NCBI GenBank assembly: GCA_014526335.1
Contig: JACTAT010000059.1
Location: 5,008,325-5,072,324, forward strand
Source: Chrysaora quinquecirrha
Lineage: Eukaryota; Cnidaria; Scyphozoa; Semaeostomeae; Pelagiidae
DNA: 64,000 bases
Direction of reading: 5' to 3'
In this document: in pieces, positions 3,536-39,106 of the stretch
Layout of the letters: each line of letters begins with the position of its first letter
Position numbering within the stretch: the stretch's first letter is position 1
The notes under the pieces: generated by a model
Told to the model about the DNA's origin: nothing
Seen by the model: only the letters and a program-made list of their open reading frames with translations
The model's database searches: none
Position numbers and translations under genes: made by a program

Positions 3536-4041
3536 GACAGACTTTTGAAGATGCTCTTTTGACACGTCACCAACGTCACTCAACACTGACTTGATGCATT
3601 CAAGTTTAAGGTGTCGGCAATGGTCATGGGCCTAAACTAGAGCGGCAAAGTCAAGCGTCAGCTCCCATCTGGTTCCCAAAGCCGAGTAATGTTAAATATA
3701 TATACCTAAGCTCCTTAAATGTTGATTGAACCTAAATCCAAACTATTTTGTGATAACTGTCACTTGCAGGCATCTTTACGAACTCTCTTCTTCGACTTTA
3801 TTTTTGCACAACAAAAACCAACGTCTGTCACTGTGCCAATTTCAAAACGGAAGAAAATTGAATGACCTCGTTTTGATTCCAGCCTCTCCATTCATTTTCT
3901 CAGAGATCAACAAATTTTTCAGACAACATTTGAGGTACCTGTACACTTCTTTGTTATGAATTTCAAACAAATCATTGCATTTGCTGTTATATATTTATGT
4001 CAACTTAAAAATAAAGAATATTAATTTCATTTTTATTAGGT
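3536..4041. promoter_or_regulatory. Shared intergenic promoter region between VPS10 receptor and PEBP-like gene
   Basis: This 506 bp stretch separates the two divergent start codons, so it must hold the 5' UTRs and probably both promoters. A pyrimidine-rich TTTTTATTAG stands just before the PEBP ATG and could be a splice acceptor, implying a non-coding 5' exon. I see no convincing TATA box. Confidence 0.4.
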
Positions 4042-14743: not shown

Positions 14744-17604
14744 ATGGAACTCGACGTGAACAGAGAGAATAGACTGACCTCACCTACCCTTAATGATGAC
14801 GATGATGACAGGTAAGGTGATGTAAAGATATGCTAAATAAAGCTACCTGATCGATGCTGTGAAGGAATATATCTTCACTAGTCTATAGGCCCTACTAAAC
14901 CTTATGTTCTAGCAGGCGTAGGCGTATGCATGTACAATTTCCCAAGGTATAGTTTTATAGGACTGGCCAGTCAGTGTGTGTGTGCTCTGTGCCCTGTTGC
15001 CTTAGGTATAGTCCAGCCCAGGCTCAACAAGAGGCAGAGCAGGCAAGCCCTTGGTGTGCCAAATTGCAATATTTTGTAATAAATTAAGAGATTAGAATAG
15101 ATCATTTCGGTATGACGTCAGACAGCATAAAATTTTTTCGAAATCACATGATATTGAGTTTTTTATATGAAAATCTTATAAAGCAGTCAAAGGTACAAAG
15201 TTTCACCGTCCTAGCAGCACTCGTGTTCTTAATTTTATCAGCATTCAAAGTTCCCGATTTTATAAAGGCTTTGACCGCAAAAAATGAACTTGTTGAAACT
15301 TTTACCCCATACGGTCAAAGCCCTTATAAAATCCTAACTTTGGATGCTCGTAGAATCGATAATACAAGCGCTGGGATAGTAAAACTTTACACCTAGACTA
15401 ATTTTTGGGTGCTTTATACGATTTTTGCATCGAAAAATTGATATCTTGCGGTTTCGAAAAATTTATATTCCATTGAAATGATCTATAGAAGTTAAACTAT
15501 AAATGTGACTAAAAAAATGGAATATTGGGAGGGGGCAACATTCATGTCTACCACTGGGCAAGGATGACGGATGACACTGCTACAGCACTGTAGATTCCCA
15601 GTAAAGGCAAACTGTAATGAAGTTGATTGGGTAAACAAAAGAACAATAAAACATAGTAGATTAAGTCAGGCCCAAGTAATTTCGATGTACATCGAAATTT
15701 GTGTAGATGATAACAATCTGACTCCTTTGTGTGAAGAGGTTACAATGTAAGGACAGTGTGCCTTTAAAGCTAGATAGGTATTAGGTCATTTCAAAAGGAA
15801 GATATTCCAAGCTTCCTCAAATATTTTTTGCTTTGTTGTAGAAGAACAAAAATCCGAAAAAAGTATCATAATTTATAACTTTTTTATGGTTCTATTTTCA
15901 AAAACTGAATTACAGTACTAAATCTGTATGTTTGTCTTTTGATTTTTCCAACTTTTAGAAGATCATGCTGGGTGTGTTTTGCAACTGAAGAGGACGAACC
16001 TGGAGCCAAGTGGATAAAACCATGCCTCTGCAAGGGCTCAACAAGATGGGTTCATGTTGTTTGTTTACAAAGATGGATTGACGAGAAGCAAGCAAATAAC
16101 CCAACTGTGAAAGTGTTTTGTCCTCAGTGTAATACTGAATACAGAATCAAGTTTCCAAGTTTTGGTCCAGTTCTCATCATCATAGATTACAGTGACAAAG
16201 TTATCAATAGGATCTCACCCGTGATTGCTGGTGGTGTTGTTCTTGGGTCCTTGTATTGGTCTGCTGTGACATATGGAGCCATAACGATCATGCAAACAGT
16301 GGGACATAAGGATGCACTTGAATTGATGGAAAAGGAAGATCCTCTTTTTCTGTTTGTTTTCCTGCCCATTATTCCATTTGGACTGATTCTTGGAAGAATG
16401 ATAAAGTGGGAGGACTACCTTTTGCAGCTTTGGAGAAAACATTCTGCCAAGCTTTGGTTTCAGAATGGAGAACATGATGATGCTGCAAGAGTTCCAGTTG
16501 AGGCTGGAAATGGCATAGACTTTGCTTATTCAACACGCATTCTTTGTGGTGCACTTTTATTACCAACATTTGCTTCTGCTTGTGGCAACTACTTCTTCAA
16601 AAATGTCAACAGTGCATTTAAACGAACATTACTGGTAAGTTTTTGTATGTTTTTGGTCACATGTAGCAGATACTAAAGCTGCAGCTAAGTATCAGCTTTT
16701 TCACCTTTTCTGGTGATTCGGTACTCCTGAAAATGTCCCGTATATGTAAAATCAAGAGTTGGCTACATACTGCGACTAAATTTCTGTCATAAAGTGCTAC
16801 AATAATCAAATTGCGTGGTAAGAAGACTGGGTTCTAGAAAGTTTCCAGGAAAGTGGGTGAAAACAATGCAATATGTTGCATCCTCAGCACAAAAAACTGG
16901 CCACATGCTGCAACATAACTGGCAACAAGCCAAAACTTGTCACAAAGATTTCAATCAAATCAATGTTCTGTGACCCTTTTTCTCAGGTCACAAAAATTTT
17001 GTTCCAAAATACATCCCTGTCTACATGTGCAACTTTCAGTTCTTCTGGGCGGAGCAAGATCTCTCTATCATCATCAGCATCTTATTTTTTAGTGCATGAG
17101 CATTGGAGTATGTGCTGTCCATTTAGGTGGGTTTTGAGCCTTGAAATTCCCTAAATATGGGTATGATTTTAACCTAACCCCATGTTGTATAAGAAGGTGG
17201 GAAATTGCAGAAAAATTTAAATATTCACTTTTTTGAGTCAGAATAGTGCTATTTTGCTTCAAAAATTTTCTTTACAATTTAAAGTAATAATATGACAATT
17301 TCACTAACAGTAACAATTTCAAGTTACTGGCCTCATATTCCGCTTTTGTCTACCTCAGAGTAGGTAACTTTATCAAATCTAAGTGGCACATTGGTGTCTA
17401 TCTGTAAGTCATGTACCCCTCCTCACGCAAACAACTCTTTCTAACTCTCCTACAGAACTAACTACCGTTATTACTTTACAGGGTGGAGTCTTGTTTGTGG
17501 CAGTAAAAGGTGCCATTAAGATATACTTTAAACAACAACAGTATCTGAGACTTTGCCGCAGAACTATTGAAGAATATCCTCATCAAACATCATCTTCATT
17601 GTAA
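14744..17604 (+). CDS. MARCHF5: E3 ubiquitin-protein ligase MARCHF5, three exons
   Basis: RING-CH ubiquitin ligase; in animals MARCHF5 sits in the mitochondrial outer membrane and ubiquitinates fission and mitophagy factors. Exons 14744-14811, 15959-16634 and 17482-17604 join in phase to give 288 residues (human 278). The 22-residue N-terminus is acidic (LNDDDDD). The RING-CH C4HC3 set follows: CWVC, then CLC, WVHVVC and FCPQC, over roughly residues 25-80. Four hydrophobic membrane segments come next, starting with VIAGGVVLGSLYWSAVTYGA. The last exon carries the family tail LFVAVKGAIKIYFKQQQYLR. The ATG context is good and all introns are GT-AG. All zinc ligands are present, so the gene looks functional. 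Confidence 0.95.
15096..15489. mobile_element. Long imperfect palindrome (foldback element) in MARCHF5 intron 1
   Basis: The left end TAGATCATTTCGGTA pairs with the right end CATTGAAATGATCTATAG. The arms continue inward for about 190 bp and include ATTTTATAAAGGCTTTGACC / GGTCAAAGCCCTTATAAAAT. The 94-residue open frame inside it is a by-product. A relative is at 51960-52280. Confidence 0.65.
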
Positions 17605-22808: not shown

Positions 22809-23308
22809 NNNNNNNNNNNNNNNNNNNNNNNNNNNNNNNNNNNNNNNNNNNNNNNNNNNNNNNNNNNNNNNNNNNNNNNNNNNNNNNNNNNNNNNNNNNN
22901 NNNNNNNNNNNNNNNNNNNNNNNNNNNNNNNNNNNNNNNNNNNNNNNNNNNNNNNNNNNNNNNNNNNNNNNNNNNNNNNNNNNNNNNNNNNNNNNNNNNN
23001 NNNNNNNNNNNNNNNNNNNNNNNNNNNNNNNNNNNNNNNNNNNNNNNNNNNNNNNNNNNNNNNNNNNNNNNNNNNNNNNNNNNNNNNNNNNNNNNNNNNN
23101 NNNNNNNNNNNNNNNNNNNNNNNNNNNNNNNNNNNNNNNNNNNNNNNNNNNNNNNNNNNNNNNNNNNNNNNNNNNNNNNNNNNNNNNNNNNNNNNNNNNN
23201 NNNNNNNNNNNNNNNNNNNNNNNNNNNNNNNNNNNNNNNNNNNNNNNNNNNNNNNNNNNNNNNNNNNNNNNNNNNNNNNNNNNNNNNNNNNNNNNNNNNN
23301 NNNNNNNN
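22809..23308. other. Assembly gap, 500 N
   Basis: Exactly 500 undetermined bases, a round number that suggests a scaffold gap of unknown true size. It removes the upstream part of the LINE. Confidence 0.99.
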
Positions 23309-23749
23309 GATTGGGTGACAGTAACCAGTGGAGTCCCCAGGGCAGTGTACTTGGACCTTTACTATTTCTGTTATTTGTCAACGACCTGACCAGTCATATC
23401 GAGTTCTGCAAGGTTAAAATGTTTGCAGATGATATTAAATTGTATGCAAAGGAAAAAGGAAACCATTCCAAAATTCAGAGGGACATAACAAAAATCTGTG
23501 ACTGGTCGAAAACGCAGCAGCTACCTATAAACCCGCAAAAATGTAAATTTTTACGACTTGGAAATTGCAACGACAGTTTTCAAAGATATACCTTAACAAT
23601 TAATAATGGTACCCCAGTAGAGATCTCGAAAGTTGAAGAAATGAAAGACCTTGGTGTCATCATTGACAGTAAATTAAAATTCGATAAACATATCTCTGAA
23701 ATATGCAGGAAAGCACAAGGTGTACTAGCATCAATTAAGAGAACAATGA
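23309..23749 (+). pseudogene. LINE reverse transcriptase fragment, 5' part (frameshifted)
   Basis: Non-LTR retrotransposon reverse transcriptase, CR1/L2-like in style. DWVTVTSGVP is read in one frame. After a one-base loss near 23337 the next frame continues QGSVLGPLLFLLFVNDL, then the catalytic block FADDIKLYA and later LGVIIDSKLKFDKHI. The frame runs until the DNA transposon interrupts it after IKRTM. The upstream end is in the assembly gap. The 3' part resumes at 29275. The frameshift and insertion make it dead. Confidence 0.9.
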
Positions 23750-23751
23750 TA

Positions 23752-24127
23752 TGGTGGCCCATGTTTGCCATTCGAAATTTTTCAAAAATCTTATGATTTT
23801 TGACTTTTATAACTTTTCTTTTATCATTTTCACTCGAATTTTTTTATTTTTTTCTTAAATTAATTTTTTCTTTTATTTTCATTTGAAAAATTTTGTTTTT
23901 TTTCTTACAAATTTTTGTTTTCTTTAAATATTTTTTTTTTCGAAAATATCTAAATTTAAATTTTATTCTTTTCATATTTTTTTATTTTTATTTTAAATTC
24001 AAATTGAAAAACTTTTTTGCATCACTAATAAAAAAACCGTCAAAAAGTTTTTTCTCGATATTTTTTATGCAAAAGAAAAATCACCGCAAGCCCAGGTTTG
24101 CCATAGTATACCAGCATCCTTTGCGCG
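23752..24127 (+). repeat. Left terminal inverted repeat of the alpha-kinase transposon
   Basis: About 376 bp, very T-rich. It matches the reverse complement of 28885-29272 almost throughout, apart from a small indel in the poly-T part. A 15-mer at its outer edge (GCCCATGTTTGCCAT, 23757) recurs with one change at its inner edge (GCCCAGGTTTGCCAT, 24090). The transposase ATG is 30 bp inside. Confidence 0.92.
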
Positions 24128-24156
24128 CAGTAGCAGCAGCAACAACATAAGACAAG

Positions 24157-27056
24157 ATGGCGGCTGCAGGAAAGGGTTACTTTCGGAATGATCAGTGGAA
24201 AGAAAACAACAAACTTCGTGAAGACCTCAAACAGTACATCGCACAAGGCTTGCATAGGCAGGAAATTCTCGATTTTATGGAGCGCGACTACCAACAGTAT
24301 GCTTGGAGTTTACGGTCCCTAGATAGGCGATGTGATTACTTCGGTATCAAAAGACATGATAAAGCCGTTACAGTGGATCAGTTGCGAACAGCAGTTCAAG
24401 ATGAACTGGATGGTCCTGGGAAACTCCTCGGCTACCGTGCAATGCATGTAAAGATAAGACAGGTACATAAGTTGAATGTACCACGACATGCAGTCCATAA
24501 TATGATGTTTGATCTTGATCCAGATGGCCTTGAGAATCGGGCCCTTACAAACAGAAAGAGAAAAAGGTTGGCAGGGAAATTTGTCACAAGGGGGCCAAAT
24601 TGGGTTCATTCATTGGACGGACATGCAAAACTTATGGGGTATCAGAAAAGCACATTCCCTTTAGCCATATATGGTTGCTTAGATTCTGCAAGCAGAAAAC
24701 TTCTCTGGCTGAAAATTTGGACAACTAATTCTGACCCCAAGATTGTAGGAAGATGGTATTTTGAACATCTCTATGAGACAAAGATAATCGCCCAAAACTT
24801 AAGAATCGACAAGGGCACTGAAACAGGGGACATGGCCACGATGCATGCATTTCTGATGTCAGAGCTAGGTGCAGAAGATCCTGTTTCGTCAGTCGTGTAT
24901 GGTCCATCAACATCAAATCAGGTAAAAACTACTTTCAAGATAAAATAGAAAATGTGAACTTCTGTGGTTTTAATTTATTAAATGAGCAAATAAAACAGAT
25001 TTAAATTAACTCTACTATCTATATAAGCTGATACAACTACTCTGTTTGTGGCAAGGCCTGTAGAATAACATAACAACATAACTTTAAATTTAAGTCAATA
25101 TAACATTAATTAGGATATAATTAAAAACATGAACATACGAATAAGATAAAATATGAAATTTCAAAATTGATTTGGCACTACATAGGCATGTTCATTCAGA
25201 AATGTGGTTAGTATTTCTAAGGTTACGATATTAATGCTGAATCATAATGCACAGTTGAAGACTCGTATGATTATACATACTCTTTTATGTTCGAGAGAAA
25301 CAGACTCGCTAGTTTCGATTCTGTTGTTCTATGGTTTTCTTTAACAATGGAGAACAATAGAAATTTAAGAAACTCCTTACTAGTAGAGCCCGAGCTAGGT
25401 TTCTGATATAAAAACGTGTAAATTAAACAGTCTCACAAAAAGTAATACTTCCCATCCCCATTCCATTTTCACATAGTTGTAGGGTTGTAGGGTTTCTGTG
25501 AGTAAATAACATTCAGATGTTACCACTGAAAATGGGTGTTAACATTTCCAAACTTTTGTTTTGGTAAACACATTTCACAAACTACCTTATACCCTTTGTT
25601 ACAACTAACATGTTACCCTTTATAAGAAAATTAAACATTTTTTATCTTTACACAATACATTCTTGTTATTTACCCCCAGATAGAAAGATGGTGGCGTGAA
25701 CTACATGAACGCCTGGAGCTATATTATAAAGAACAGCTCAAGTACTTGAAGGATCAGCTCTTTTATGATCCGCAAAGTCAAGATGACAGGTAAGGTCCTT
25801 TTGTTGAAAAAGTATGCTTAAATATGTTTTCAGAATGTACGTTTAAATTTTTCTATTTTTCTAATGAATCTTTTAAGAAGCATGTAAAACTACTCTCTAG
25901 TCTCTAATAGACGTCCTCTGCTTGTTAATTTTATAAAATTTTCCACCGGAAAGTCTTATTTCAGCCCCGCTTATTAATTTGAGTTTCAAGCAAGACAAGA
26001 GTTGCACTACCAAAATCTATGAACCCAACTAAGATTCAGAATTTTATGAAATCCATAAAGTTACAAGTATTGCATTTTAATTGTATTTTAACATCTTACT
26101 GTTGTTGCTACTTTCTGGTCTCTAGTAGATGTCCCCTTCTGATATGATTTTAGAAAATTTTCCTAGGACATTCATATTCGAACCCTGGCCAGTCTCTTGA
26201 GGACTGTGGGGAAAACATTATTTTTGATGTTATCCATGCTGTTTTTTATTTATTATAAGTTTTGGGGCCTCAGAAATCTTCTTGAGGACTGTGGGGATGT
26301 ATACATACCAGTTCTTCAACATGAGCTTAACACTTTCAGAGAAAAAATTTGGAACTGTCACAGAATTCGACAGCAGAAGAACGTGAATTTGCCAACAGGA
26401 GTTCCAGACCATATCTACAGTTTCCCGACAGAATATGGGCTGGAAGAATGTGGTATGACAAACTAAACTCTTTACAACCTTTGAAAACTAAATGTGTATA
26501 ACCAGGCATCTGATCTTAAAATTAACAATAAAAAAGTGACTACAATTTCACTTTGAAATCTTTCATATTTTGAGAAAAATGCCTGTCTGCAGCTTCCTAA
26601 ATTGAAATTGTCATACTTGAAGGCATACAGATTCAGGGACATAGGAAGCATCTTAAAATTAGGGGGCACAACACTTTAGGGAACTTTTGCCGCTAGAAAT
26701 GCACTTTCAACCATGTTGGATTTGCAAGTTTTTGTTGCAAAAAGAAGGACAGTTTTTGTTTATTGCACCCTGTGCCGTCCTGCTGAATCCTTGAGCAGAT
26801 TATTATATAAATATTGAAATTTGCCTTGAAAGCAGAGCTTATTCATTCATTGTGATTTCTTACAGGTACTCCAATAACTGAAAATATGCTGAGACAAGTG
26901 GCAGGAATATCTCGTGTTTATGACGTTGATGACAACTTTCTTCCAGAGAGGTTCATGGAAAAGTGCAAGCAAATTATTGAAAAGCCAGAGGATATCAAAC
27001 CTAAGGAATGTGTCAATGCATTCCTATATTTAAAGGAACAATATAATGCACATTAG
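24157..27056 (+). CDS. Transposase with integrase core domain (DDE type), four exons
   Basis: Predicted to cut and join the transposon ends. Exons 24157-24921, 25680-25789, 26274-26452 and 26866-27056 join in phase by GT-AG junctions to give 414 residues. The ATG context is strong (GACAAGATGG). The N-terminal part (about residues 15-65) looks like a helix-turn-helix region (GLHRQEILDFMERDY, SLRSLDRRCDYFGIKR). The integrase core has an acidic triad: Asp in VHSLDGHAKL, Asp in RIDKGTETGD, and Glu in STSNQIERWWRELHERL, where the last block spans the exon 1-2 junction. A conserved C-terminal part includes GVPDHIYSFP, YGLEECG and KECVNAFLYLKE. All exons are open, so it is potentially active. The third exon starts at the CAG before AAATCTTCTTG, the only acceptor that keeps phase. 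Confidence 0.87.
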
Positions 27057-27070
27057 TCTAGTCTACTATA

Positions 27071-27361
27071 CCGGGTGACTCAGAAAAAGTACCGCTGTTT
27101 GCAGAGCTATATTTTAAACTTGATAGGATCCTGATCCAGGTTTTTCATATTATCGTAAATGAATTGAAGCTGTATTTGATAAAATAAGACGTTTTTCTTT
27201 TTGCAAATTAAAAGTCTTAGAGTTGTGGTACAGGTACGTTTGATGTCTTAAAATCTAAGTTAGCCTTTAGCCTTTCGCTAATATAATTAACCTTGATCAT
27301 GAGCGCATATAATTTTAAATATAGCTCTGAAAACAGCGGTACATTTTTCTGAGTCACCCGG
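27071..27361. mobile_element. TA-flanked MITE nested between the two transposon genes
   Basis: The left CCGGGTGACTCAGAAAAAGT and the right counterpart ATTTTTCTGAGTCACCCGG are inverted repeats extending about 45 bp. TA follows and precedes the ends (27069-27070, 27362-27363). It is 291 bp and non-coding. The termini look mariner-like. Confidence 0.8.
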
Positions 27362-27440
27362 TATGTTTGTGAATTAAGTGGACATCACAAATCCCAGTTT
27401 GTATTGTAACTCGAACATTGCACACTTACAAATAAATGGA

Positions 27441-28796
27441 TCAACACTTTTCAAGTTCAGGTAACTTAAGACCTTTGCAAAATTCATTACATTTGTGAGA
27501 ACTTGCAAATGTATCAATGGCATAAGACGCAAGGTTACCTGCACAAAATAAGTATTCATCATCTTCTTGTAACTTGGTTGTGGCGACCTCAGGATCCATC
27601 AACAGGTGGTCACAACCTTGAATATCAACCACCATTAGCTTCCTTTGTGATTTTTCGTATGAAAAATGTACAAATGCACTTGATTTTCGGGAAATGAGTG
27701 TTTGGGTACTTGTGATTGCTCCTGTGTTGTTGATGTGCTTCTCAAATGTCCCATCAATAAATTTCTCAATCGTGGCATATTCTTTTGATGGCAGTTGACA
27801 TAGATAGACATCATTGTATTTGAATGGGCATCCAAAGTTTTTTAATTTATTTTCTGCAGCACTCTGTTCAAATTTTGCAGCAAAGTGTTGAGCCAAACAG
27901 TTCATTTGAACGCATCGTTTTGCTTGCAACTCTGGAGTCTGTCCAAGTTTTTCTATGCATGTCAGTGTGTCTGTTTTGTACTTTTTTATCACCCATTGCC
28001 CTTGAAATTTTTCACATGATCCAACTGCCTTGTAAGCTTTGCGAAATCCACCCTCGGCAAATGGTTGCTCATCAATTGATAATTGAATAGGTTGTGGAGC
28101 AGTTGACCAGGTTTGCAAACCAAAATCAAATGTGAAGATATCAATCGTTGTTAGCTCCTTTGATATTACCTTCCCTAACTGTAGCATCTGGGATATTGAG
28201 ATGCTTTTAGGAATATCAATTTTCGTTGCTAGCTGGTTATGATGAAATGTTGGTTTGTTTACTTCTTCACTTGATACAGACAATTTAGGAGCTGGGACAC
28301 TGACACTGTGCTTCGGCCTTTTTTTATTTTTGAAGTGCAACGACTCCTCATCACTTATGTCACTTTCTATGTGACTTGCAGAAAAAAGCTCCTCCATGGG
28401 ATTGCTTTTCTTAAGAAATCTGATATGTATAAGCTTCAGGTTGGGGATCTGAGAAATAGAATTGCAAGAAGGGCCTTGCTCCCCAGCAAGAATATCGCAA
28501 TAGTAGCCTGAACCAATTTTTTTCTTGAAGTGCTCGTTACATGTTCTCTTGATCTCATCAAAGGTTAAATCTGCCTTCCCATAAGGGACAAACTCTCTGG
28601 GGCCCACGCGGCTGAATTTCTGCGCTTTCCCAGATACAGAGGCACTAAGTCTTTGGACAGTAATGGCATCGTTGGTCACTGCACCTTCATCTTTTCTGCG
28701 GTCTGTGGTACTGTTCCTTTTTTTATTTATATCACGTTTGGCAGCTATCTTCTTTGCGAAATTCTTCCACTTGTTTTGGTCATCTTCCTCCGCCAT
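27441..28796 (-). CDS. Alpha-kinase (atypical protein kinase) carried by the transposon
   Basis: Single-exon, 451 residues, predicted to phosphorylate Ser/Thr on unknown targets. The N-terminal 60 residues are basic (KKIAAKRDINKKR). A middle segment of unknown role contains VGPREFVPYGKADLTF and GYYCDILAGEQGPSC. The alpha-kinase domain spans about residues 225-445. It has the nucleotide-binding glycines PFAEGGFRKAY, the catalytic lysine candidate in QWVIKKYK, TIEKFIDGTFEKHINN, FVHFSYEKSQRKLMVVDIQG and the C-terminal zinc-site pattern SSHKCNEFC. Where eEF2K-type kinases have a GxGNLG loop, this one reads CAGNLAS, a possible change in substrate or nucleotide handling. The start codon is 88 bp inside the right inverted repeat. 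The gene runs convergently to the transposase. Confidence 0.88.
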   Translation of the reverse strand: MAEEDDQNKWKNFAKKIAAKRDINKKRNSTTDRRKDEGAVTNDAITVQRLSASVSGKAQKFSRVGPREFVPYGKADLTFDEIKRTCNEHFKKKIGSGYYCDILAGEQGPSCNSISQIPNLKLIHIRFLKKSNPMEELFSASHIESDISDEESLHFKNKKRPKHSVSVPAPKLSVSSEEVNKPTFHHNQLATKIDIPKSISISQMLQLGKVISKELTTIDIFTFDFGLQTWSTAPQPIQLSIDEQPFAEGGFRKAYKAVGSCEKFQGQWVIKKYKTDTLTCIEKLGQTPELQAKRCVQMNCLAQHFAAKFEQSAAENKLKNFGCPFKYNDVYLCQLPSKEYATIEKFIDGTFEKHINNTGAITSTQTLISRKSSAFVHFSYEKSQRKLMVVDIQGCDHLLMDPEVATTKLQEDDEYLFCAGNLASYAIDTFASSHKCNEFCKGLKLPELEKC

Positions 28797-28884
28797 TATT
28801 GATGCAGACTACCTTCTTGAAATAGGCCTTATCCTTTTCCTCGCCTCATTCCTCTGCCTCCCTCTCGCGTTCTCGCCCCAACTT

Positions 28885-29272
28885 CGCGCAAAGGATGCTG
28901 GTATACTATGGCAAACCTGGGCTTGCGGTGATTTTTCTTTTGCATAAAAAATATCGAGAAAAAACTTTTTGACGGTTTTTTTTATTAGTGATGCGAAAAA
29001 TTTTTTCAATTTGAATTTAAAATAAAAATAGAAAAATATGAAAAGAATAAAATTTAAATTTAAATATTTTCGAAAAAAAAAGAAAAACAAGAAATATTCA
29101 AAGAAAACAAAAATTTGTAAGAAAAAAAACAAAATTTTTCAAATGAAAATAAAAGAAAAATTAATTTAAGAAAAAAATAAAAAAATTCGAGTGAAAATGA
29201 TAAAAGAAAAGTTATAAAAGTCAAAAATCATAAGATTTTTGAAAAATTTCGAATGGCAAACATGGGCCACCA
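28885..29272 (-). repeat. Right terminal inverted repeat of the alpha-kinase transposon
   Basis: About 388 bp, the reverse complement of 23752-24127 with few differences, mainly a short indel in the homopolymer-rich core. The same two 15-mers are present: ATGGCAAACATGGGC at 29253 and ATGGCAAACCTGGGC at 28908. Confidence 0.92.
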
Positions 29273-29274
29273 TA

Positions 29275-29520
29275 CAAGTCAAGGCTGGACATAAGAAAAC
29301 ACTTTTTCTCACAGAGAGTCATCAATGAATGGAATTCATTGAAAAAAGAAATAGTAAATGCTGATAATGTACTGAATTTTGAAAAACTATATGACAGTTT
29401 CCGTCGCGATGAAAAATCTAACTTTTGTACTAACTGATTAATTTAAATGCTTAAACTCAGGGTTTTATAGGCGTTAGCCTTTTAGCCCCTTAATTACATT
29501 TATATTATATTATATTATTA
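29275..29520 (+). pseudogene. LINE fragment, 3' part with end of reverse transcriptase ORF
   Basis: The frame resumes as KSRLDIRKHFFSQRVINEWN, the family C-terminal block, and ends at the TGA at 29435-29437. A short 3' UTR and an AT-rich tail with repeated TTATA units follow near 29495-29515. Together with 23309-23749 this is one LINE copy split by the DNA transposon. Roughly 100 or more codons normally found between the two parts are absent. Confidence 0.85.
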
Positions 29521-29608
29521 TTATGATATGGGGGAGAGGGGGCTTTGACAAAGGGGAGCTGCTTTAAAAGCTTCAAAGTGTCTCTATAATTTTGGCCAAG
29601 ATTGTAGA
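29519..29608. repeat. Inverted-repeat partner of 20311-20400
   Basis: Carries AGCTGCTTTAAAAGCTTCAA, then AGTGTCTC and TTTTGGCCAAGATTG, the reverse complement of 20311-20400. The LINE tail stops directly against it, so the LINE may have inserted into or beside this terminus. Confidence 0.6.
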
Positions 29609-29892
29609 TATAAAACATAGTTGTCTTTTGTTCTGCGACGCTGTGTTTCCATCTCAAGTTTATTACTTTATTAGAGCCTCAAGACAGGCAGTCAGTAGAC
29701 TTGTCTTTTTTTTATTATCTTACGCAATGGTCTTAATCAATGGTATGAAGCACTGAAGACACTAGAGGTCAAACTGGTACTGTCTTCAGTGAGGCAGAAT
29801 AACTCAAACCGTACGAAGGGCAAAAAGAGGATTTAGCAACAAAGATCAAAACCGGTAAATTGTTGAGTAAACAATGAAAATATTGGCGTTAC

Positions 29893-30193
29893 CATATGTC
29901 TTTGGTAGTATGCTTCTTCTATCCTGCTTGGTATAACTTCTGGCTGCCCATGCATCGCAGACACAACTTGCGGAAATGCTAGTGCTCCTGATATTGGTAG
30001 CGGACTAAAAGAAACTGCTCCAGAGGCTATGTGGTGCACAGGAAGCATCGGGTACGGAGAATGAAGGTAAGGCGGCGCGGAAGCCATTGGATTTTGCTGA
30101 TGTTGCTGCTGAATGCAAGAGCAGCTCCGAGAACTATAGCCACTCGGTAAACCTTGGCAACTGCACGGTTGAAGAACAGGTCCTGGCCCGTCA
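29893..30193 (-). CDS. Internal exon of an unidentified Gln/Pro/His-rich protein
   Basis: 301 nt bounded by an acceptor (TTCATTCACACACAG) and a donor (GTAACG). The open frame is low-complexity but exon-like: CSCIQQQHQQNP, PPYLHSPYPMLPVHH, and the more conserved-looking IPSRIEEAYYQRHM at the end. I do not recognise the family. The upstream partner may be 32128-32208, but their phases do not join directly, so at least one exon is missing between them. No downstream exon was found. Confidence 0.4.
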
Positions 30194-32127
30194 CTGTGTG
30201 TGAATGAACAAAGCACTCATGATTATTTAAAATGAAGTGAAACAAGCGAAATATTGTACAAGTTTATTTGAGGACGAATAACTGAAACACAACTGAACAT
30301 ACTGAGTTTTTTGTTTGACGCCTCTAATTATAAATGTCAGAATAGACATAAAAACAATATGGAAAATATAAACTGAAATGGGTCGGGATGCACCAGTTAC
30401 AAATGTGAAACTGGAATAATGCAGTTTCTTAACACCAATCAGCTCAAGGGATATAGCGAGATAACTATTAAACCAGCGAGATTTAGCTTTCTTGTAAACG
30501 AGTAGAGATCGAAATTACATAAAATTAAGATTCCCAAAAGTTTTGTTGGCTGATGTGAAGACACTCAAAGTATTTTTCTTTCTTATTTCGATTTAGTTAT
30601 ATTTACACAGGTACATTATATCAATATAATGGACTGTTGAAATGCCTTTTGACTATTAATGCAGCAACAAAAAAATTTTTTTTCAAGTAAAACGTTGAGA
30701 ACATTTTTACACTTGGGTCGAGTCGAGAGCTGTCAAAGAAGGTTTAACCATCTTCAAATCCATGGTCTTACTTTGCTCAACATTTCTACTGTTTGAGGTG
30801 TTTATGACCAAATTTCTAAGCCAACAAGAACATTTGAACACCTCCCTTCCTTTCCCACTAAAGTTGACCAGATGCAGGCGGAGAATAGAGAAAACCTCTT
30901 TTGCTTTGTCCCTAGAGCATGGAATTGAGTTCCTCCACTCGTTAATTGTTGAGATCATTTTCACACAATAAATCAACTTCTCTTAACTAAGTCAAGAGCA
31001 TTTAAACAGAATTTAAGACTGTTTTTTGTTAAAGACATGTTTAATAAAAACAACTTTATGTTTTTGGCTGGAAAAAGCGTCAATATTAGCGTCTATCTAT
31101 TCATACATCATTCCTCAAACACCCTTTTCCTCAAAAGCGACTAAGGTTACGATAAAAGAGCTTACAAATAAACAGTAGAATTATGGACAGTGTCTCTAAT
31201 GCTAGTGAGCATAGCTATAAGAGTGGATATTACACATGGTCAGCAAAGAATATGTAAACATGTCTTTTTCTTTTGTTATATAGCCATAGGAACAGTTTGA
31301 GGGATACGCTATATCCAAGAGTACATTATAGAAGAGAAATGTTAGTGCTCTATGACTGGAAATTGTTTACTAAATGAATAGCATTGAAAACACAAACCTC
31401 ATTGATGGGCAACAGGGTTGATGTCTTGAACATATTGCTGGGTTATAGTTACAATCATATGTTGAAGAATGTGGTCTTCTACAATCTGACTGAGCTACCG
31501 CCTGATGATAGATTCTTGGTTCATGAGTTTGACAGCATTGAGGACAAGGGCTCTAAGGGAAAACGTTATGTTGATAGTAACATTTACCTACAAATTGAAT
31601 TCAAGTCAGAAAATGGTCCTTATTACTATTACAGGCGTCACTGAGGATTGTAGATAGCAGATAACAGGCTGTTAGAGGTGATATGGGAAAATGAATAGAA
31701 ATTCTGTACATTGTGGATATTGCCTTCAATTATCCAAAAACTATGTATTTTTGCTTTTTTACTTGTAATATATTCTCCCAAGAGAAGCCAAATTCAATGA
31801 ACTCATCCAGGAAGGTTCCTATGTTTTTTTCTCAGAGATAACAGTGATTCAAACTTTTGTTTTACAGATCTGCGGAAATGTGACAAAAAATTGTAAACAC
31901 GTGGAATGTGAGCGGGCAATGGGGTAATGTAATGACCTTGGATCTCTGGACCTGCTGGACCCATCTCAATGATCCTGTAAATACCCCCAATCCCCAGTGT
32001 CTCTTGAACTACTACAATAAACTAGAAAAATTCTGCACCATCTATCACTTTTTGTCATTGTGTCCAAAGCTGACTGGATTTGCAGGCAAATTTTCATAAA
32101 ACTCTTTTATAGATTTCCATACATTAC
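30194..32127. other. Spacer or intron with two unexplained open frames
   Basis: A minus-strand frame at 30707-30976 (contains NEWRNSIPCSRDKAKEV) and a plus-strand frame at 31384-31644 (contains NLTELPPDDRFLVHEF, ends YYYYRRH) look less random than the surroundings. Neither resembles a family I know. They may be worn transposon genes. Confidence 0.3.
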
Positions 32128-32208
32128 CTTTCTATCAGGTGCATACTGTACTGGGAAGGATGGTAGAGGCTCCTGAACATAGCCATGATGCATGCTGTGA
32201 GAGGACAT
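32128..32208 (-). CDS. Possible 5' coding exon of the Gln/Pro/His-rich gene
   Basis: An ATG at 32208 opens MSSHSMHHGYVQEPLPSF, then PVQYAPDRK, and reaches a good donor (AAAG/GTAATG) in phase 0. Its composition (His, Pro, Tyr, Gln) is like the exon at 29893-30193. Confidence 0.35.
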
Positions 32209-35200
32209 CTTACTTTTGACAGATATATGTCCTTGATGTCTAAAAGATAATAATAATGCTTCTTACTTAACTTAAAAAATTCTCTCCTTTGTATTTCTTT
32301 AACGGAACATCTGTGACATTATGGCTCGTGACATGTCCTCTCGATGTCTCCCAGTTTAGCCACCTTGGAAACTTTCTAGAGTGTGACAATATTTGAAGCG
32401 TGAGACACAAATGTTTCTGGGAGACAACAGAAACATTTCTTGTCTCCACGATTCAGGTGACATGTTGATCGCTTGTCACTCGCAAGTTTAGCCCCACTGG
32501 GGGACATGCCCAACACAATGTCTTGCGTGACATATCTCCTAGTTTAGCCACAGCGTAAGTTTGAATTTGATGATTCTTGAAGAGTACAAAGAAAAAGTAA
32601 AGAGAAGTAAAGCCTGTTTTCTTATTTTTACCATACTTTCTTACTTTTTCACGCTGTTGAGTGGTCTATTGCCTGAAAACACCCGTTTTCTACAGAGGGG
32701 TGTCTTAGCATTGGGCATTTAAAATAGGGGGTGCTGAGCACATAATAAAAGTTTTAGAGGGAATGGTCATATAAAATATTTCTGGTGAGGTCATATAAAA
32801 GAGGGGGGGCTTTTAAATGATGAAATATGGTAATGCAGCTACTGCCTGCCCAAAAGTAACATGTGTAGAATTTCATGGAGGAAGAGAATCCACCCACCAT
32901 CCTCAGTCTTTACATACTCATTCAGTTTTAAAATAGCATCTAGAAATTGCCTTGAGATCAGTTTGAGGGTCTTCTACTTCTTACAGAAAGATAATGGCTC
33001 ACCAAGCAGGGATATCGATATTAAGAACCCGCACACCATTAACGTCCAGGAGGCTGGTCGTCGCGTGTTCAAAGAAAGTGAACAACTATGATGCCGTAAA
33101 TCGGGAATCTGGTGCATGAAAATACGCCATAATTAATCAGAGAAAACATAGTTCTTTTTAAGGCTCTCTTCTTTAGCAGCAGAAATGTAAGAATTTATCT
33201 TCTGGGTCGGAAAACCACGGCCTCTACCCGTTTGTACCTAGTGTGTTCATTGTGTTGTTACTCAACACAATGACTTTAGGCCAGGCTATCGCACACACAT
33301 TTGCAATTTGAGTAAAAGTTAGGCTCTCTCGCAGCGATCATTACAGATCAGGAATTAATTATCAAAAAGCAAGACTAGACAAAATCAAATTTAATAAATT
33401 TATGATGCCAATAGAGTGAAATGAGACAGAAAGAGAGTGCCATCTCAAATCTCTCTCCCAGATATCGTGTTCCACTTCACTACACAAAGCTGGTGTTGAA
33501 GATGCCCCGCGAAGACTACAATTTCAGGCATAATCAGAGAAATCGACCAGTTTAAAAGCATCATACCTATTCCAGATTGATCTATTTAACTTCAGAAAGC
33601 TCACTTATAACCAGCAGTCGACAAATCCAGTTGAGAAAAGTAAAACTTTCTCTGCCTAAAACACTTCTCTGGCTTCTTCTCTGTATGAAACCCTTCTTTT
33701 CCCTATTGATAATATTCAACAACCTCATTATGCCCTTTGCGCAGATGTCAACGCATCACCGGAAACGGATGTGACGAAATGGATTCCAGATTATGATTGA
33801 ACCTACTGATTCATCGATAATGCTCAACAAACGCCTATTTTTTGGTTCAAATGACTCAAGGCAATTATCATATGGCCTTAAATTTCAAGTTTATATTTAT
33901 TTGTATTATTCTTCTATTTCAGTCTTTGCTTAAAGCTAAAAAAATCGTGCACACATTGCCCCAGGGCCAAGATTGGGGTCAGTGAATATCATACTGTGAA
34001 GGCCTGTTTGAATTGCACATGGACTTCCGGTTAGTTTCTAAGTCCAAAATGACAAGCCCATGAAGGTTGTGGGATTTTGAGAGACCAACAACAAGATTCA
34101 AGATTTGGACACAGGTTGTATTGGATGCAGGCACAGAATCAGGGCCGTAGCAGACTATTGGGATGGCAGGTTGCAACCCCAAATTTTTCGAAGTTCATTG
34201 TATTTTTATGGAATTTAGAGATTTGGATGCTTTTCTATTGGCTATTGCTCCTATTGTTTCAGAAACCCCCCAACAAATTTTCCTCCTGCACCACTGACAC
34301 TGAGAATCCCTGCAGCCTCAAGCTTTTCTGGGGGGGGGGGGGAGAATTTTTGAGGCTTTGTGCTGATAACTCAACAAGAAAGTTTATGGGGGTAGGGTAT
34401 ACCCCTTATATCTTTGGGCATTAAACATCCCTGGAATTTGTGCCCCAAAACAAAGACTTGTTTCTGATCTTTGAGGAAAGAAATTGGTTTAGTGTACCAC
34501 CCCCAGGAATGGCAGTTTTGTTGGTTGCAGACACCTTTTTCCAAAAAAATCTAGGGCCCCATTATCCTTGTTGGACTATGTATGTGAGTACATCTTGGGG
34601 TGTGAGCTGCCTTTGCATTAATGGGGTTCAATATGACCCTTGAGTAACATGCTAGAAGCCCTGGGTTTTCACTCTTACACCTAAGCTCCTAACCAGTTGA
34701 TATTTTGGGAAATATATGCAAGCTGCCCCTAGGGTAATGATGCTTGTAGCCCTTGGGCTCTACATTTTTCCACCCAAGTCCCCATGTGGATATTTTTGGA
34801 AATGAATTCAAGCTGCCCTAGAGTAAAAATGCTTTAAGCACTTCGGCACTACATTTTTTCATCTATGCCCTCCTCATTGTCATTTTTGGGAATGAATACA
34901 AATATCCCATCCCTCATCCCTGACCCAGACTCAGTAGCAAGGTTGACAAACAAGATATACTTGTTGGTACATTGGAAGGCTCTAAAGAGAGCCTAGTCGA
35001 TGTTGTGTCCAGTTTTCATCTGCCTGTCTTCCACTTCTGTTGGTTAGATCTTCACACCATAACTTCTGCTTCTAAGCTTTTTTGGTTCAGCAGTTGTCTT
35101 CTGTCTTCTTGTCACAGCAATATTTTAACATACACTACAGAATACTAATTACTAAATTACTAAACTACAGTTTTTTGAAAGAACAGCAGTTACAAGTTAG

Positions 35201-36005
35201 CTTCTGAGAATTACAAGATTAATATCAACAGAAAGATAATTTCTGGCTTTTGCAGTCAGGAACTTTCATGAAAAATTTCTGTGAATATTTACGAAAACAC
35301 AACTTTCAAAGTCATGAGATTTTGAAAAACATTGCTATCTTCTCACGAATCTTGAAATAATTTTTTTTGCTTCAATTTTCTCCTTTTAAACTCTTTCCTC
35401 CTGCAAAAGCCAAATTCAGCAAATCCATCAAAAATATCTAACCAACAACAATCTAATACAGGCATCTGAAAACTGTCAAGTCGTTTTGTAAAGTGTGTCA
35501 CAGTCAAATCAGTTCAAACATGTGAACAGAACTCAAAGTTCCTGAATGTTCCAGTCCTAGAAATCAATAAGATTCGTCGTTCCGTAGATCTCTATACAAA
35601 GTTCAGACTATTCCGAGTCGACAGACACAAAAGGACAATTTGAGAACAGATTTTTATCTTTCCAAAACAAAACAATTTTGTTCCTTGCTTTAGGGCCGAA
35701 AATAGTGTCTGTCGTCTCGGAACAGCCTGCTACGTATCTGTAAAATCAAATTCTAATATATTGCCTATATTTTAAACACATAGACAGATATTAGTTTACA
35801 TATTTACATGTACAATTTACAAATACTCTACCCTACACCTACCCTCCCTCCCACAATTATCCCCGTCAGTAATTCTGTAATTTGAAATCTATATATGAAC
35901 ACATGTGTACATCGGTAACAAACAAGAAATTTAAAAGTAAAATAATAATGTAAAAGCCTTCAGTTCGATGTATTTAAATCTTTCGTATCAAAAATTTTGC
36001 TCAGC
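32209..36005. other. Intergenic region, repeats and spacer
   Basis: Contains degenerate relatives of the 9547-9702 MITE (32340-32574), a G run at 34331-34342, and repeated blocks between 34490 and 34900 sharing phrases such as AAGCTGCCC and TTTTTGGGAATGAAT, probably an old element. The last 300 bp should be the 3' UTR of the PNRC-like gene. No gene recognised. Confidence 0.4.
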
Positions 36006-36353
36006 TTAGGAAGCCGAGACTTTCAGCATCTGTCGAAGATGAACTGTCATGGCGTCCAAATTCATTTTTTCAAAAGATTCGCCATGACATGAAGATATCC
36101 AGGTTGATGGTGGCTTTGGAAGCACATTGGCAGGCGGTGGACTGTTAAATTTCGGTCCAGCATATCGCTTGTCTCCAGTTTCTGGGATGGATATCGGTGA
36201 AGTTGATTTTCGATTTGCATCTATCGACGGGCTTGATCTCGATGTTGATGTCGTCTTTCTTTCATCCGCGAGGATTTGACTGCTTTGCACTGGGGAAAGA
36301 CGACTAGAAGGACTCCTTCGAGGCGATTGTGAATATGTTCGATGTCTTCCCAT
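36006..36353 (-). CDS. Proline-rich nuclear receptor coactivator-like protein (PNRC family)
   Basis: 115 residues starting at the ATG at 36353. PNRC proteins bind nuclear receptors and, as PNRC2, bridge the decapping activator DCP1A with UPF1 in mRNA decay. Visible here: a Ser/Arg-rich N-terminus, the hallmark block YAGPKFNSPPPANVLPKPP with its SH3-like-ligand LPKPP, and a C-terminal helix (MTVHLRQMLKVSAS) that parallels the human MTFQLKTLLKVQ ending. It is shorter than human PNRC2 (139). A possible acceptor (GGACTTTTAG) just upstream suggests a 5' UTR intron. Single coding exon. Confidence 0.75.
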   Translation of the reverse strand: MGRHRTYSQSPRRSPSSRLSPVQSSQILADERKTTSTSRSSPSIDANRKSTSPISIPETGDKRYAGPKFNSPPPANVLPKPPSTWISSCHGESFEKMNLDAMTVHLRQMLKVSAS

Positions 36354-36687
36354 CACCTTTTTGTATCTAAAAGTCCTTCAAATATAGGTAAATTCACTTC
36401 AAACTCAGCAACGTTGCTGTAAACTTTCTCAAAAACTCCTACGACTGCTTCTTCGCTCGTCAACACACAAAAACTGAAAAAATTTCTTTGCGTCGTAGGG
36501 ATTATTGACTTTTGTTGATAACCAATCAGAGCTCGATTTACAAATCACATGACAAAATTGTCCAATCAGAAACAAAGGGATTAAGTCATATGATTTCCAT
36601 CACTTACGTCAGGTGTGGGTTGTTGTTTTCATGTGAACAATGGTCGCATTGAATTTTTAAAACACAAAAAACGTGTTCAGCCAAAGC

Positions 36688-36906
36688 CTATCCTGTCTTT
36701 TGTTCTTCTTTTGTTTTGAAATGAAAGCGATATTCGCTTTCTATCCTCAAAAGGGCATAACGATTTTCGGATGCTTTTTTCGCGGAAAGATAACCCAGGG
36801 TTACGTTGTCTCTAAAAATAAACCTCATGAGTGAACCTACTTTTCGCTTTCGTTTCTGATTGTGTTTGGATTTATTGGGGAATTTTTTCGAAAATGACAA
36901 ACTCAT
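36688..36906 (-). CDS. Hypothetical small basic protein
   Basis: 72 codons from an ATG, lysine- and arginine-rich (FSKKFPNKSKHNQKRKRK), ending EEQKTG. Not recognised. It lies upstream of the PNRC-like gene on the same strand and could be a chance frame or a 5' exon. Confidence 0.2.
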   Translation of the reverse strand: MSLSFSKKFPNKSKHNQKRKRKVGSLMRFIFRDNVTLGYLSAKKASENRYALLRIESEYRFHFKTKEEQKTG

Positions 36907-37020
36907 TTTATCCCTTGTTTCGCTGAAATATTATTTGTGTTTTAGTTCAATAAATCACGCTAGTAAGACAATAGGGCAGAATTAAACTTGAATTGAAATG
37001 GTGAAATAAATTCTGTATAA

Positions 37021-37765
37021 TGTAATACTGGTAAATTAAATGCATAAGATTTCGTTCGCGATTCTAACTAGAATTAGGCAAGTTGGGTTATTGTTTGGTT
37101 TAATTGCTATTTGGAGCAAGTGTCTTGTGAAAGCATTTGCATCCTAGTTGTATTTTGAGTATGGAACGGCAGTAGTGTCTGCGGTAATAAGGACTATCAG
37201 CGCTTGTGAAAGGCTGAGTAGTGCCTGTTTGTTTGTTGTTTGTTATAGTTGAGCCGACAGTATCAATTTAGCCTTAGAAATCATTATTGTGCATTAGATG
37301 AAGCGATGCTCATTAACTAATCAAGTTTTGGAATAAACAAGTTGTTTCGAGTTAAGGTTGCCAAGTTTAATTAAGCCATGGTGATTAAGGACGTTGATTA
37401 TATTCATGTCCATTAGCTTTTGGATTAAGACCAAAATGTTACCAGGAGTAATTAGAGGGGAAGAATCTTTGTATCGGATTATAATTATTGCAAACTGACC
37501 AATCATGTTCAGATTTAAAGTATGAGTAAGACCCTATTGTTCATTGTATTTATAAGCAAGATGCTTTAGATTAGAGAGGAGAGTTAAGGTTCAATGGCAG
37601 GGACTGGTTAAGTCACCTCGCCGAACCGCGTGATCATATCGATATGTACGTGACTGTATTCGAGTTGTCATCTTTGTCTGGTGATCCTCTCTCTGTGCTC
37701 GTCTATGTGATGTGGACATGAATGTATTGGAAAGATCGCTCGGCTCACAATAAAACCTTTTTACA
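37021..37765 (+). repeat. Left LTR
   Basis: Starts TGTAATACTGG, ends CCTTTTTACA. Almost identical to 38359-39106 except in its last 40 bases (37725-37752), where differences are clustered. Confidence 0.93.
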
Positions 37766-37783: not shown

Positions 37784-38358
37784 TTATTCTAAAGATGCTG
37801 GAAACAGATCTCGGACCTAATTTAGCAGAGCCGAGGTGATGAGAAAATAATGCAAAGACGTGACTGAAAGACATTGAAGAACTTGGTTAGAATGATGAAG
37901 TAAATGGACAAGTTCGGACACATGATTAAGCTCTGACATTTCTATTAACATGGTATTTTGCGATTTGATAGGCGACGTATGTCTTTTCTACAACAAAGGA
38001 GTAACGCACACCCTAAACAAGCATATATTTTGTTGATGCTGCAGAGAGCATGCATTTTGACCGATGAAGGCGACGAACACCTTATCTATGAGATTAACAG
38101 TTCGAACACCCTGAAAAATCAACCTAAATGCATTCGTGAGACAATGTTATCATCAAGCCAAGGGAACTCTTTGAACTATGTGTCTTCGAACTGAGTTGAA
38201 CAAAGAACATTGCAGTTGTTTTAATACGCACCTTTGCCGCATCGTTAAGAAAGGTAACTTATCCAGTACCGTGATTAGATCATTGTTAATCAGCTACGTA
38301 ATTGTATGTAGATTAACTAAGAATCGAGGACGATTCCTTTTGTTAGGAATGGGAGGTA

Positions 38359-39106
38359 TGTAATACTGGTAAATTAAATGCATAAGATTTCGTTCGCGAT
38401 TCTAACTAGAATTAGGCAAGTTGGGTTATTGTTTGGTTTAATTGCTATTTGGAGCAAGTGTCTTGTGAAAGCATTTGCATCCTAGTTGTATTTTGAGTAT
38501 GGAACGGCAGTAGTGTCTGCGGTAATAAGGACTATCAGCGCTTGTGAAAGGCTGAGTAGTGCCTGTTTGTTTGTTGTTTGTTATAGTTGAGCCGACAGTA
38601 TCAATTTAGCCTTAGAAATCATTATTGTGCATTAGATGAAGCGATGCTCATTAACTAATCAAGTTTTGGAATAAACAAGTTGTTTCGAGTTAAGGTTGCC
38701 AAGTTTAATTAAGCCATGGTGATTAAGGACGTTGATTATATTCATGTCCATTAGTTTTTGGATTAAGACCAAAATGTTACCAGGAGTAATTAGAGGGGAA
38801 GAATCTTTGTATCGGATTATAATTATTGCAAACTGACCAATCATGTTCAGATTTAAAGTATGAGTAAGACCCTATTGTTCATTGTATTTATAAGCAAGAT
38901 GCTTTAGATTAGAGAGGAGAGTTAAGGTTCAATGGCAGGGACTGGTTAAGTCACCTCGCCGAACCGCGTGATCATATCGATATGTACGTGACTGTATTCG
39001 AGTTGTCATCTTTGTCTGGTGATCCTCTCTCTGTGCTCGTCTATGTGATGTGGACATGAATGCATTCGACGGACCGCTCGGCGCTGCAAAATAAAACCTT
39101 TTTACA
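38359..39106 (+). repeat. Right LTR
   Basis: Same start and end as the left LTR. It carries ATAAAACC close to the end. It differs from the left copy mainly between 39064 and 39092. Confidence 0.93.

Follow-up and report, generated by a model that had tools for sequence, protein, structure and literature searches.

An apparent IS3EU-type DNA transposon of Chrysaora quinquecirrha with paired transposase and alpha-kinase genes

The DNA analyzed is a window of 64,000 nucleotides (nt) from contig JACTAT010000059.1 of the Chrysaora quinquecirrha assembly GCA_014526335.1. All coordinates are positions within this window unless another locus is named. The window contains a DNA transposon of 5,525 nt whose features point to the IS3EU type. 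A DDE transposase gene and an alpha-kinase gene both lie wholly between its long inverted ends, as a preliminary description of this DNA had reported. Pairs of the same two genes recur in diverged families across the genome, always tail to tail, and the two proteins diverge together. The pair is therefore a stable two-gene mobile system, as had been proposed, and not a chance capture. The features of the element are as follows.

23750 to 29274, no strand: whole element, putative IS3EU-type DNA transposon, 5,525 nt, delimited by its inverted ends and holding both genes
23750 to 24131, plus strand: left terminal inverted repeat, 382 nt, starting with TATGG
23757 to 23771, plus strand: outer copy of a 15-mer in the left end (repeat match)
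24090 to 24104, plus strand: inner copy of the 15-mer in the left end (repeat match)
24157 to 24921, plus strand: transposase exon 1, with the start codon, D154 and D218 (GT-AG gene model)
25680 to 25789, plus strand: transposase exon 2, with E257 (GT-AG gene model)
26274 to 26452, plus strand: transposase exon 3, with a private in-frame replacement (GT-AG gene model)
26866 to 27056, plus strand: transposase exon 4 and stop codon (GT-AG gene model)
27068 to 27364, no strand: imperfect palindrome of 297 nt between the gene ends, bordered by TA as judged by eye
27441 to 28796, minus strand: alpha-kinase gene, a single open frame of 451 amino acids (aa; PF02816 match)
28401 to 28685, minus strand: N-terminal domain of the kinase, about residues 38 to 132, predicted to be a ubiquitin-like beta-grasp
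28881 to 29274, minus strand: right terminal inverted repeat, 394 nt, ending with CCATA
28908 to 28922, minus strand: inner copy of the 15-mer in the right end (repeat match)
29253 to 29267, minus strand: outer copy of the 15-mer in the right end (repeat match)

Pairing of the two genes in the genome

The genome searched comprises 328 Mb in 740 contigs. The kinase search gave 99 genome pieces (94 of 117 candidates scored) and the transposase search 107 pieces (101 of 484 scored). The genome-wide locus counts are lower bounds because the candidates were scored only in part. Clustering groups the pieces into 59 loci for the kinase and 84 for the transposase. A transposase match lies within 8 kb at 36 of the 59 kinase loci, where about 0.24 would be expected from uniform placement, and all 36 pairs are arranged tail to tail. 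Local searches at nine further kinase loci revealed transposase pieces at six of them (on C105, C171, C2 at 8.49 Mb, C320 at 74 kb, C439 at 559 kb, and C387). These are also all tail to tail and bring the total to 42 of 59. Seen from the other side, 36 of the 44 transposase loci with at least 40% identity are paired with a kinase.

The two proteins have diverged in parallel. At 14 non-redundant loci (84 pairs, compared as tblastn pieces) transposase identity is correlated with kinase identity (Mantel r 0.75), and none of 5000 permutations gave so high a value. When near-identical loci are included, r is 0.79 for 18 loci. A kinase and a transposase of the same types are also encoded by two consecutively numbered public gene models, Seg1936.5 and Seg1936.6, which are probably from the moon jelly Aurelia.

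Copies closely related to the window element were located with the inner 102 nt of its left end. This segment has seven sites in the genome, which represent four copies: both ends of the window copy, of L016 (contig C424) and of L017 (contig C420), and one end of L018 (contig C90). L017 is about 490 kb from the window copy on the same contig. All four copies carry the transposase and the kinase tail to tail; recurrence of the same ends with both genes at other loci had been set beforehand as a test of the two-gene proposal. The window copy, L016 and L017 are mutually 99.74 to 99.84% identical at aligned sites (the window copy is 99.76% identical to L016 and 99.84% to L017), and L018 is 97.5 to 97.7% identical to the three. 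Additional sequence close to the left end makes L018 longer, at 6,723 nt. Judged from these identities, the family has evidently moved or been duplicated recently.

Structure of the element and of its locus

The two inverted repeats are 95% identical, with one 12-nt gap and two 1-nt gaps. With up to three mismatches allowed, the 20-nt element end has only two sites in the window (chance 0.01). The 15-mer GCCCA(T/G)GTTTGCCAT is found twice in each end, near the outer and the inner border, so that the window has four matches against an expectation of 0.04. Its copies are possible binding sites for the transposase. The preliminary description was right about long inverted ends and placed them at 23752 and 29272; the true ends, 23750 and 29274, are two bases further out. 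Its "TA flanks" are the first and last dinucleotide of the ends themselves. TA is thus ruled out as the target duplication, and the duplications of the family are 6 base pairs (bp) long. The six bases outside the window copy are CAATGA on the left and CAAGTC on the right, so this copy has no target duplication.

The transposase gene starts 25 nt and the kinase gene 84 nt inside the respective end. The genes converge, and their coding parts are 384 nt apart. The spacer holds the palindrome, whose arms are perfect over 21 nt at its ends. It resembles a small inserted inverted-repeat element that is now resident in the family; none of the four copies has a gap there as long as 25 nt. Scans of the 64-kb window for tRNA genes and Rfam families gave no matches.

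The transposase is 414 aa long without a stop and is encoded by four exons with GT-AG borders. Its catalytic residues D154, D218 and E257 are retained in 118, 117 and 99 of 120 relatives, respectively. The first of these, residue 154, is within the IS3EU range of 100 to 300 residues from the N-terminus. The whole protein has 489 homologues at E≤0.001, and many of the 120 listed homologues bear the label PF24764 (Pfam integrase core). Exon 1 itself has a sub-threshold match to PF24764 (20.7 bits; cut-off 26). The public protein P0121 corresponds to exon 1 at 98%, including read-through into the intron. In exon 3 the window transposase has five residues in place of two, and the frame stays open. 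The affected stretch has 17 residues in the window protein; among the 120 relatives it has 14 residues in 95 and 1 to 9 in 7, is absent from 18, and has 17 in none. L016, L017 and L018 all have the usual form of exon 3. The earlier statement that the four-exon transposase is intact needs qualifying for exon 3. An exact 18-bp repeat is located at 26195 to 26212 in intron 2 and at 26280 to 26297 in exon 3; its exon copy overlaps the private change, as if copied from the intron.

The alpha-kinase matches PF02816 over the entire profile (positions 1 to 185 of 185; E 3e-36; 125.5 bits with a curated cut-off of 21.3). K271, D391, Q393, D401, H377, H434, C436 and C440 are all present, and the catalytic and zinc-binding residues are each conserved in about 110 to 120 of 120 kinase relatives. 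These roles are assigned by analogy with TRPM7 and MHCK-A. This agrees with the first description of an intact 451-residue kinase. Its conserved N-terminal domain is probably ubiquitin-like, and such a domain precedes the catalytic domain at all 18 fetched loci. The kinase belongs to one family with its own conserved N-terminal domain. The first 40 residues are basic: lysine and arginine make up 30% in the window protein and 27.5% in the median of 120 relatives, versus 13.7% when whole proteins are counted. Searches of viral contigs and prokaryote genomes found no relatives. Capture of the kinase from a host gene, which the preliminary description had considered, finds no support as a recent event.

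The window copy lies within a retrotransposon without long terminal repeats (non-LTR), whose parts flank it as follows.

23398 to 23748, plus strand: left flank, final portion of the reverse transcriptase region of the non-LTR retrotransposon (PF00078)
29276 to 29437, plus strand: right flank, with the 3' end of that retrotransposon frame, picked up 345 nt beyond the point where the left flank stops

The L017 locus has the same surroundings over a limited distance. Over 8,192 sites the right flanks of the two loci differ by 71 substitutions, of which 60 are located 2 to 4 kb out; the left flanks have no substitution over 441 nt, up to a run of N at 22809 to 23308. Left of this run the two loci share only scattered repeat over the stretch compared. 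Relative to L017, which has a perfect 6-bp duplication, CAAGTC, the window copy is missing 345 nt of the retrotransposon exactly up to its left end, including one copy of the duplication. Near-identical duplicate regions on C420 comprise 4541400 to 4555900 (with L017, L034 and L035) and window positions 23309 to 37500. By these comparisons the window locus either duplicates the L017 locus in rearranged form or is a second haplotype of it, and this accounts for the lack of a target duplication at the window copy. The duplicated L017 locus and the 345 nt missing exactly to the left end speak against an ordinary insertion of the window copy. The exactness of the left junction would be accounted for if the transposase had deleted the adjacent sequence. 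Alternatively, the assembly may contain two haplotypes of one locus uncollapsed, or a segmental duplication may be combined with a deletion.

Elsewhere in the window, a direct duplication of about 749 nt with 98.5% identity is located at 37020 to 37765 and 38358 to 39106. Two frames appear host-like by eye: an uninterrupted 1,132-aa frame at 233 to 3631 (minus strand) that resembles a VPS10/sortilin-type receptor, and a frame at 15909 to 16676 (plus strand) that resembles a MARCH-type RING protein.

Role of the kinase

The most likely role of the kinase is in transposition or in protecting the element. We favor, with somewhat more confidence than doubt, the following mechanism. The IS3EU-type transposon would normally have two genes, one for a DDE transposase and one for an alpha-kinase whose N-terminal domain is probably ubiquitin-like, and selection would retain both. 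Both genes start just inside nearly identical ends and converge, so the mirrored long ends could be transposase binding sites and matched promoters at once. The encoded transposase would make the cuts at the TATGG..CCATA ends and leave the 6-bp duplications. The basic N-terminal stretch would bring the kinase into the nucleus, where it would dock through its N-terminal domain and phosphorylate a nuclear target protein, be it in the transposase complex or a chromatin or silencing factor of the host, and so raise transposition. Selection would keep the kinase with the transposase, which is consistent with a pair that co-diverges across families while individual copies decay.

Divergence data fit this proposal in part. 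Between families, the amino-acid-changing divergence of the kinase from the window protein is 0.31 to 0.38 (three pairs) and silent sites have reached saturation; the transposase gives the same picture. For pairs from one family, changed-to-silent ratios range from 0.59 to 0.96 in five kinase pairs and from 0.59 to 0.92 in five transposase pairs. Kinase pairs among the window copy, L016, L017 and L018 (68 to 92% identical as protein and 97.5 to 99.8% as DNA) were omitted from these ratios because frameshifts put their codons out of register. Together the values are those expected when the active lineage is under selection and its individual copies degenerate.

A number of observations weigh against a two-gene element maintained by selection. 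The within-family ratios suggest that recent copies are under little selection, and the kinase frames of L016, L017 and L018 are broken by indels of 1 to 3 nt. These indels occur at eight places, five of them within runs of at least five of one base, and are accompanied by 0 to 3 substitutions over 446 to 449 codons; assembly error is therefore as likely as decay, and the frameshifts were dropped as evidence that the kinase is decaying. At 17 of the 59 kinase loci no transposase has been shown. Fourteen of these were not fetched, and three (L020, L040 and L045) were examined in whole or in part, L040 and L045 over 3.5 kb on the 3' side of the kinase. L020 (C386, 3.77 Mb; L020:4072-6565) is an element of 2,494 nt with IS3EU-type ends, a perfect 6-bp duplication (CAGGTG) and an open alpha-kinase frame, and it has no transposase match within its 2,494 nt. 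The pair can therefore come apart. Conversely, among the matches listed, a kinase match within 8 kb is lacking at 8 of the 44 transposase loci with at least 40% identity and at all 40 below 40%; related transposases thus manage without the kinase. The distant lineage (below 40%) has long uninterrupted frames at many loci, and three of its loci that were fetched show no convincing inverted ends. At two distant-lineage loci that resemble each other, L046 and L047 (C438 and C212), integrase-like frames of 414 residues stand beside a frame that by eye resembles a HECT ubiquitin ligase.

The transposase loci without a kinase match within 8 kb are also what an accidental presence of the kinase in this one transposon, by capture or neighborhood, would predict. 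That explanation is extremely improbable, and both a chance neighborhood and a single capture were rejected, given four family copies with both genes, pairing far above the chance value in a single arrangement throughout the genome, and co-divergence. L020 would similarly suit a kinase that is parasitic on the transposon, in which case kinase-only elements would spread with transposase borrowed from other elements and the two-gene arrangement would be a by-product. This appears very unlikely; L020 is a single case in 18 fetched loci, and the tail-to-tail order of all 42 paired loci and the co-divergence speak against it. Also unlikely, to a lesser degree, is a kinase directed at the general physiology of the host (elongation factor 2, for instance, in the manner of eEF2K) and retained because it benefits the host or has a selfish effect on growth. 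The alpha-kinase fold, and the presence of eEF2K among the solved relatives, would allow such a role. However, TRPM7 (118 bits) and MHCK-A (97) have higher profile scores than eEF2K (90), all at about 17 to 25% identity, and the basic N-terminus suggests a nuclear location.

The main rival is counter-defence, in which the kinase would phosphorylate a host silencing or chromatin factor and not the transposase, by analogy with the removal of silencing marks proposed for TET/JBP. It remains so because the distant lineage without a kinase match argues against an absolute need for the kinase in the chemistry of transposition. PMC12730594 describes some fungal IS3EU elements that carry a TET/JBP gene between the transposase and alpha-kinase genes, which is in line with this role. 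According to the same paper, TET/JBP genes also move from one transposon superfamily to another; the kinase, by contrast, co-diverges with its transposase, which suits a transposase partner at least as well. We regard counter-defence as a serious possibility, though a doubtful one.

If the kinase is a standing part of the transposon, the element may control its own movement, or the host response, by phosphorylation. One genome holds both the pair, in many diverged families, and a distant lineage without a kinase match, which makes the contribution of the kinase directly testable. There is also a consequence for annotation. Cnidarian alpha-kinase genes of the transposon type bear names such as TRPM6-like and MHCK-like, and genes so named may be transposon genes.

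Comparison with known systems

According to PMC12730594, IS3EU families have 6-bp duplications, inverted repeats of more than 30 bp, and ends of the form TAYGG..CCRTA. In all fungal IS3EU families with a TET gene, the TET/JBP gene lies between oppositely oriented transposase and alpha-kinase genes; in the main text of that paper, "alpha-kinase" occurs twice, in neighboring sentences. The repeats of the window element (382 and 394 nt) exceed 30 bp, and its alpha-kinase gene is opposite to the transposase gene as in those fungal families. Ends of TATGG..CCATA, which fit the published form, are present in the window copy, L016, L017, L020, L021, L023 and L027. A single base of the left end deviates in L029 and L032; in L018 one of the two ends is altered, and the ends of L025 are of another form. 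Of the 11 loci at which candidate inverted repeats were identified, six are flanked by perfect 6-bp duplications (L017, L020, L021, L023, L027 and L029) and five are not (L016, L018, L025, L032 and L033); seven more of the 18 fetched loci yielded no inverted pair. These features point to an IS3EU-type element, the assignment being set by ends, duplications and gene order as compared with published descriptions.

The preliminary description implied that the combination was new. The pairing of transposase and alpha-kinase is already in print for fungi, stated in PMC12730594 for the TET-carrying families, and the present element is an animal case. A literature search for an IS3EU alpha-kinase in animals recognized none among the matches listed, and absence from print is not claimed. 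PMC6505742 had seemed relevant but was set aside, since the enzyme it calls "alpha kinase" turned out to be eIF2-alpha kinase 3. The present analysis adds a single kinase family with its own N-terminal domain, a distant lineage without a kinase match, and a kinase-only element.

It is quite possible, if short of probable, that IS3EU was ancestrally a two-gene system with the kinase as a dedicated transposition partner, and that the pair predates the split of the fungal and animal lineages or passed between them with the element. If so, the alpha-kinase expansion of rusts and the cnidarian TRPM6-like and myosin-kinase-like genes would largely be transposon genes. PMC4469406 gives 79 and 39 alpha-kinase genes in two table columns, which are taken as the two rusts, and this expansion may share the transposon cause.

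As described in PMC12730594, the TET-carrying fungal IS3EU elements resemble the window element in their ends, long terminal inverted repeats, 6-bp duplications and opposed transposase and alpha-kinase genes. The window element differs in its animal host and in having no TET/JBP gene between its two genes. GingerRoot elements, which PMC10045372 groups with IS3EU and describes as having TA..TA termini and usually 6-bp duplications, are alike in these duplications, in mostly having such termini, and in a related transposase. This likeness is one of description, not of sequence, and the word kinase does not occur in that paper. Among solved alpha-kinases, TRPM7 (ChaK), MHCK-A, eEF2K, an Entamoeba alpha-kinase and ALPK1 have in common with the window kinase the fold, the catalytic Lys/Asp/Gln/Asp and the zinc His/Cys set, at about 17 to 25% identity in structural matches. 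Compared with all five, the conserved N-terminal domain is peculiar to the transposon kinases.

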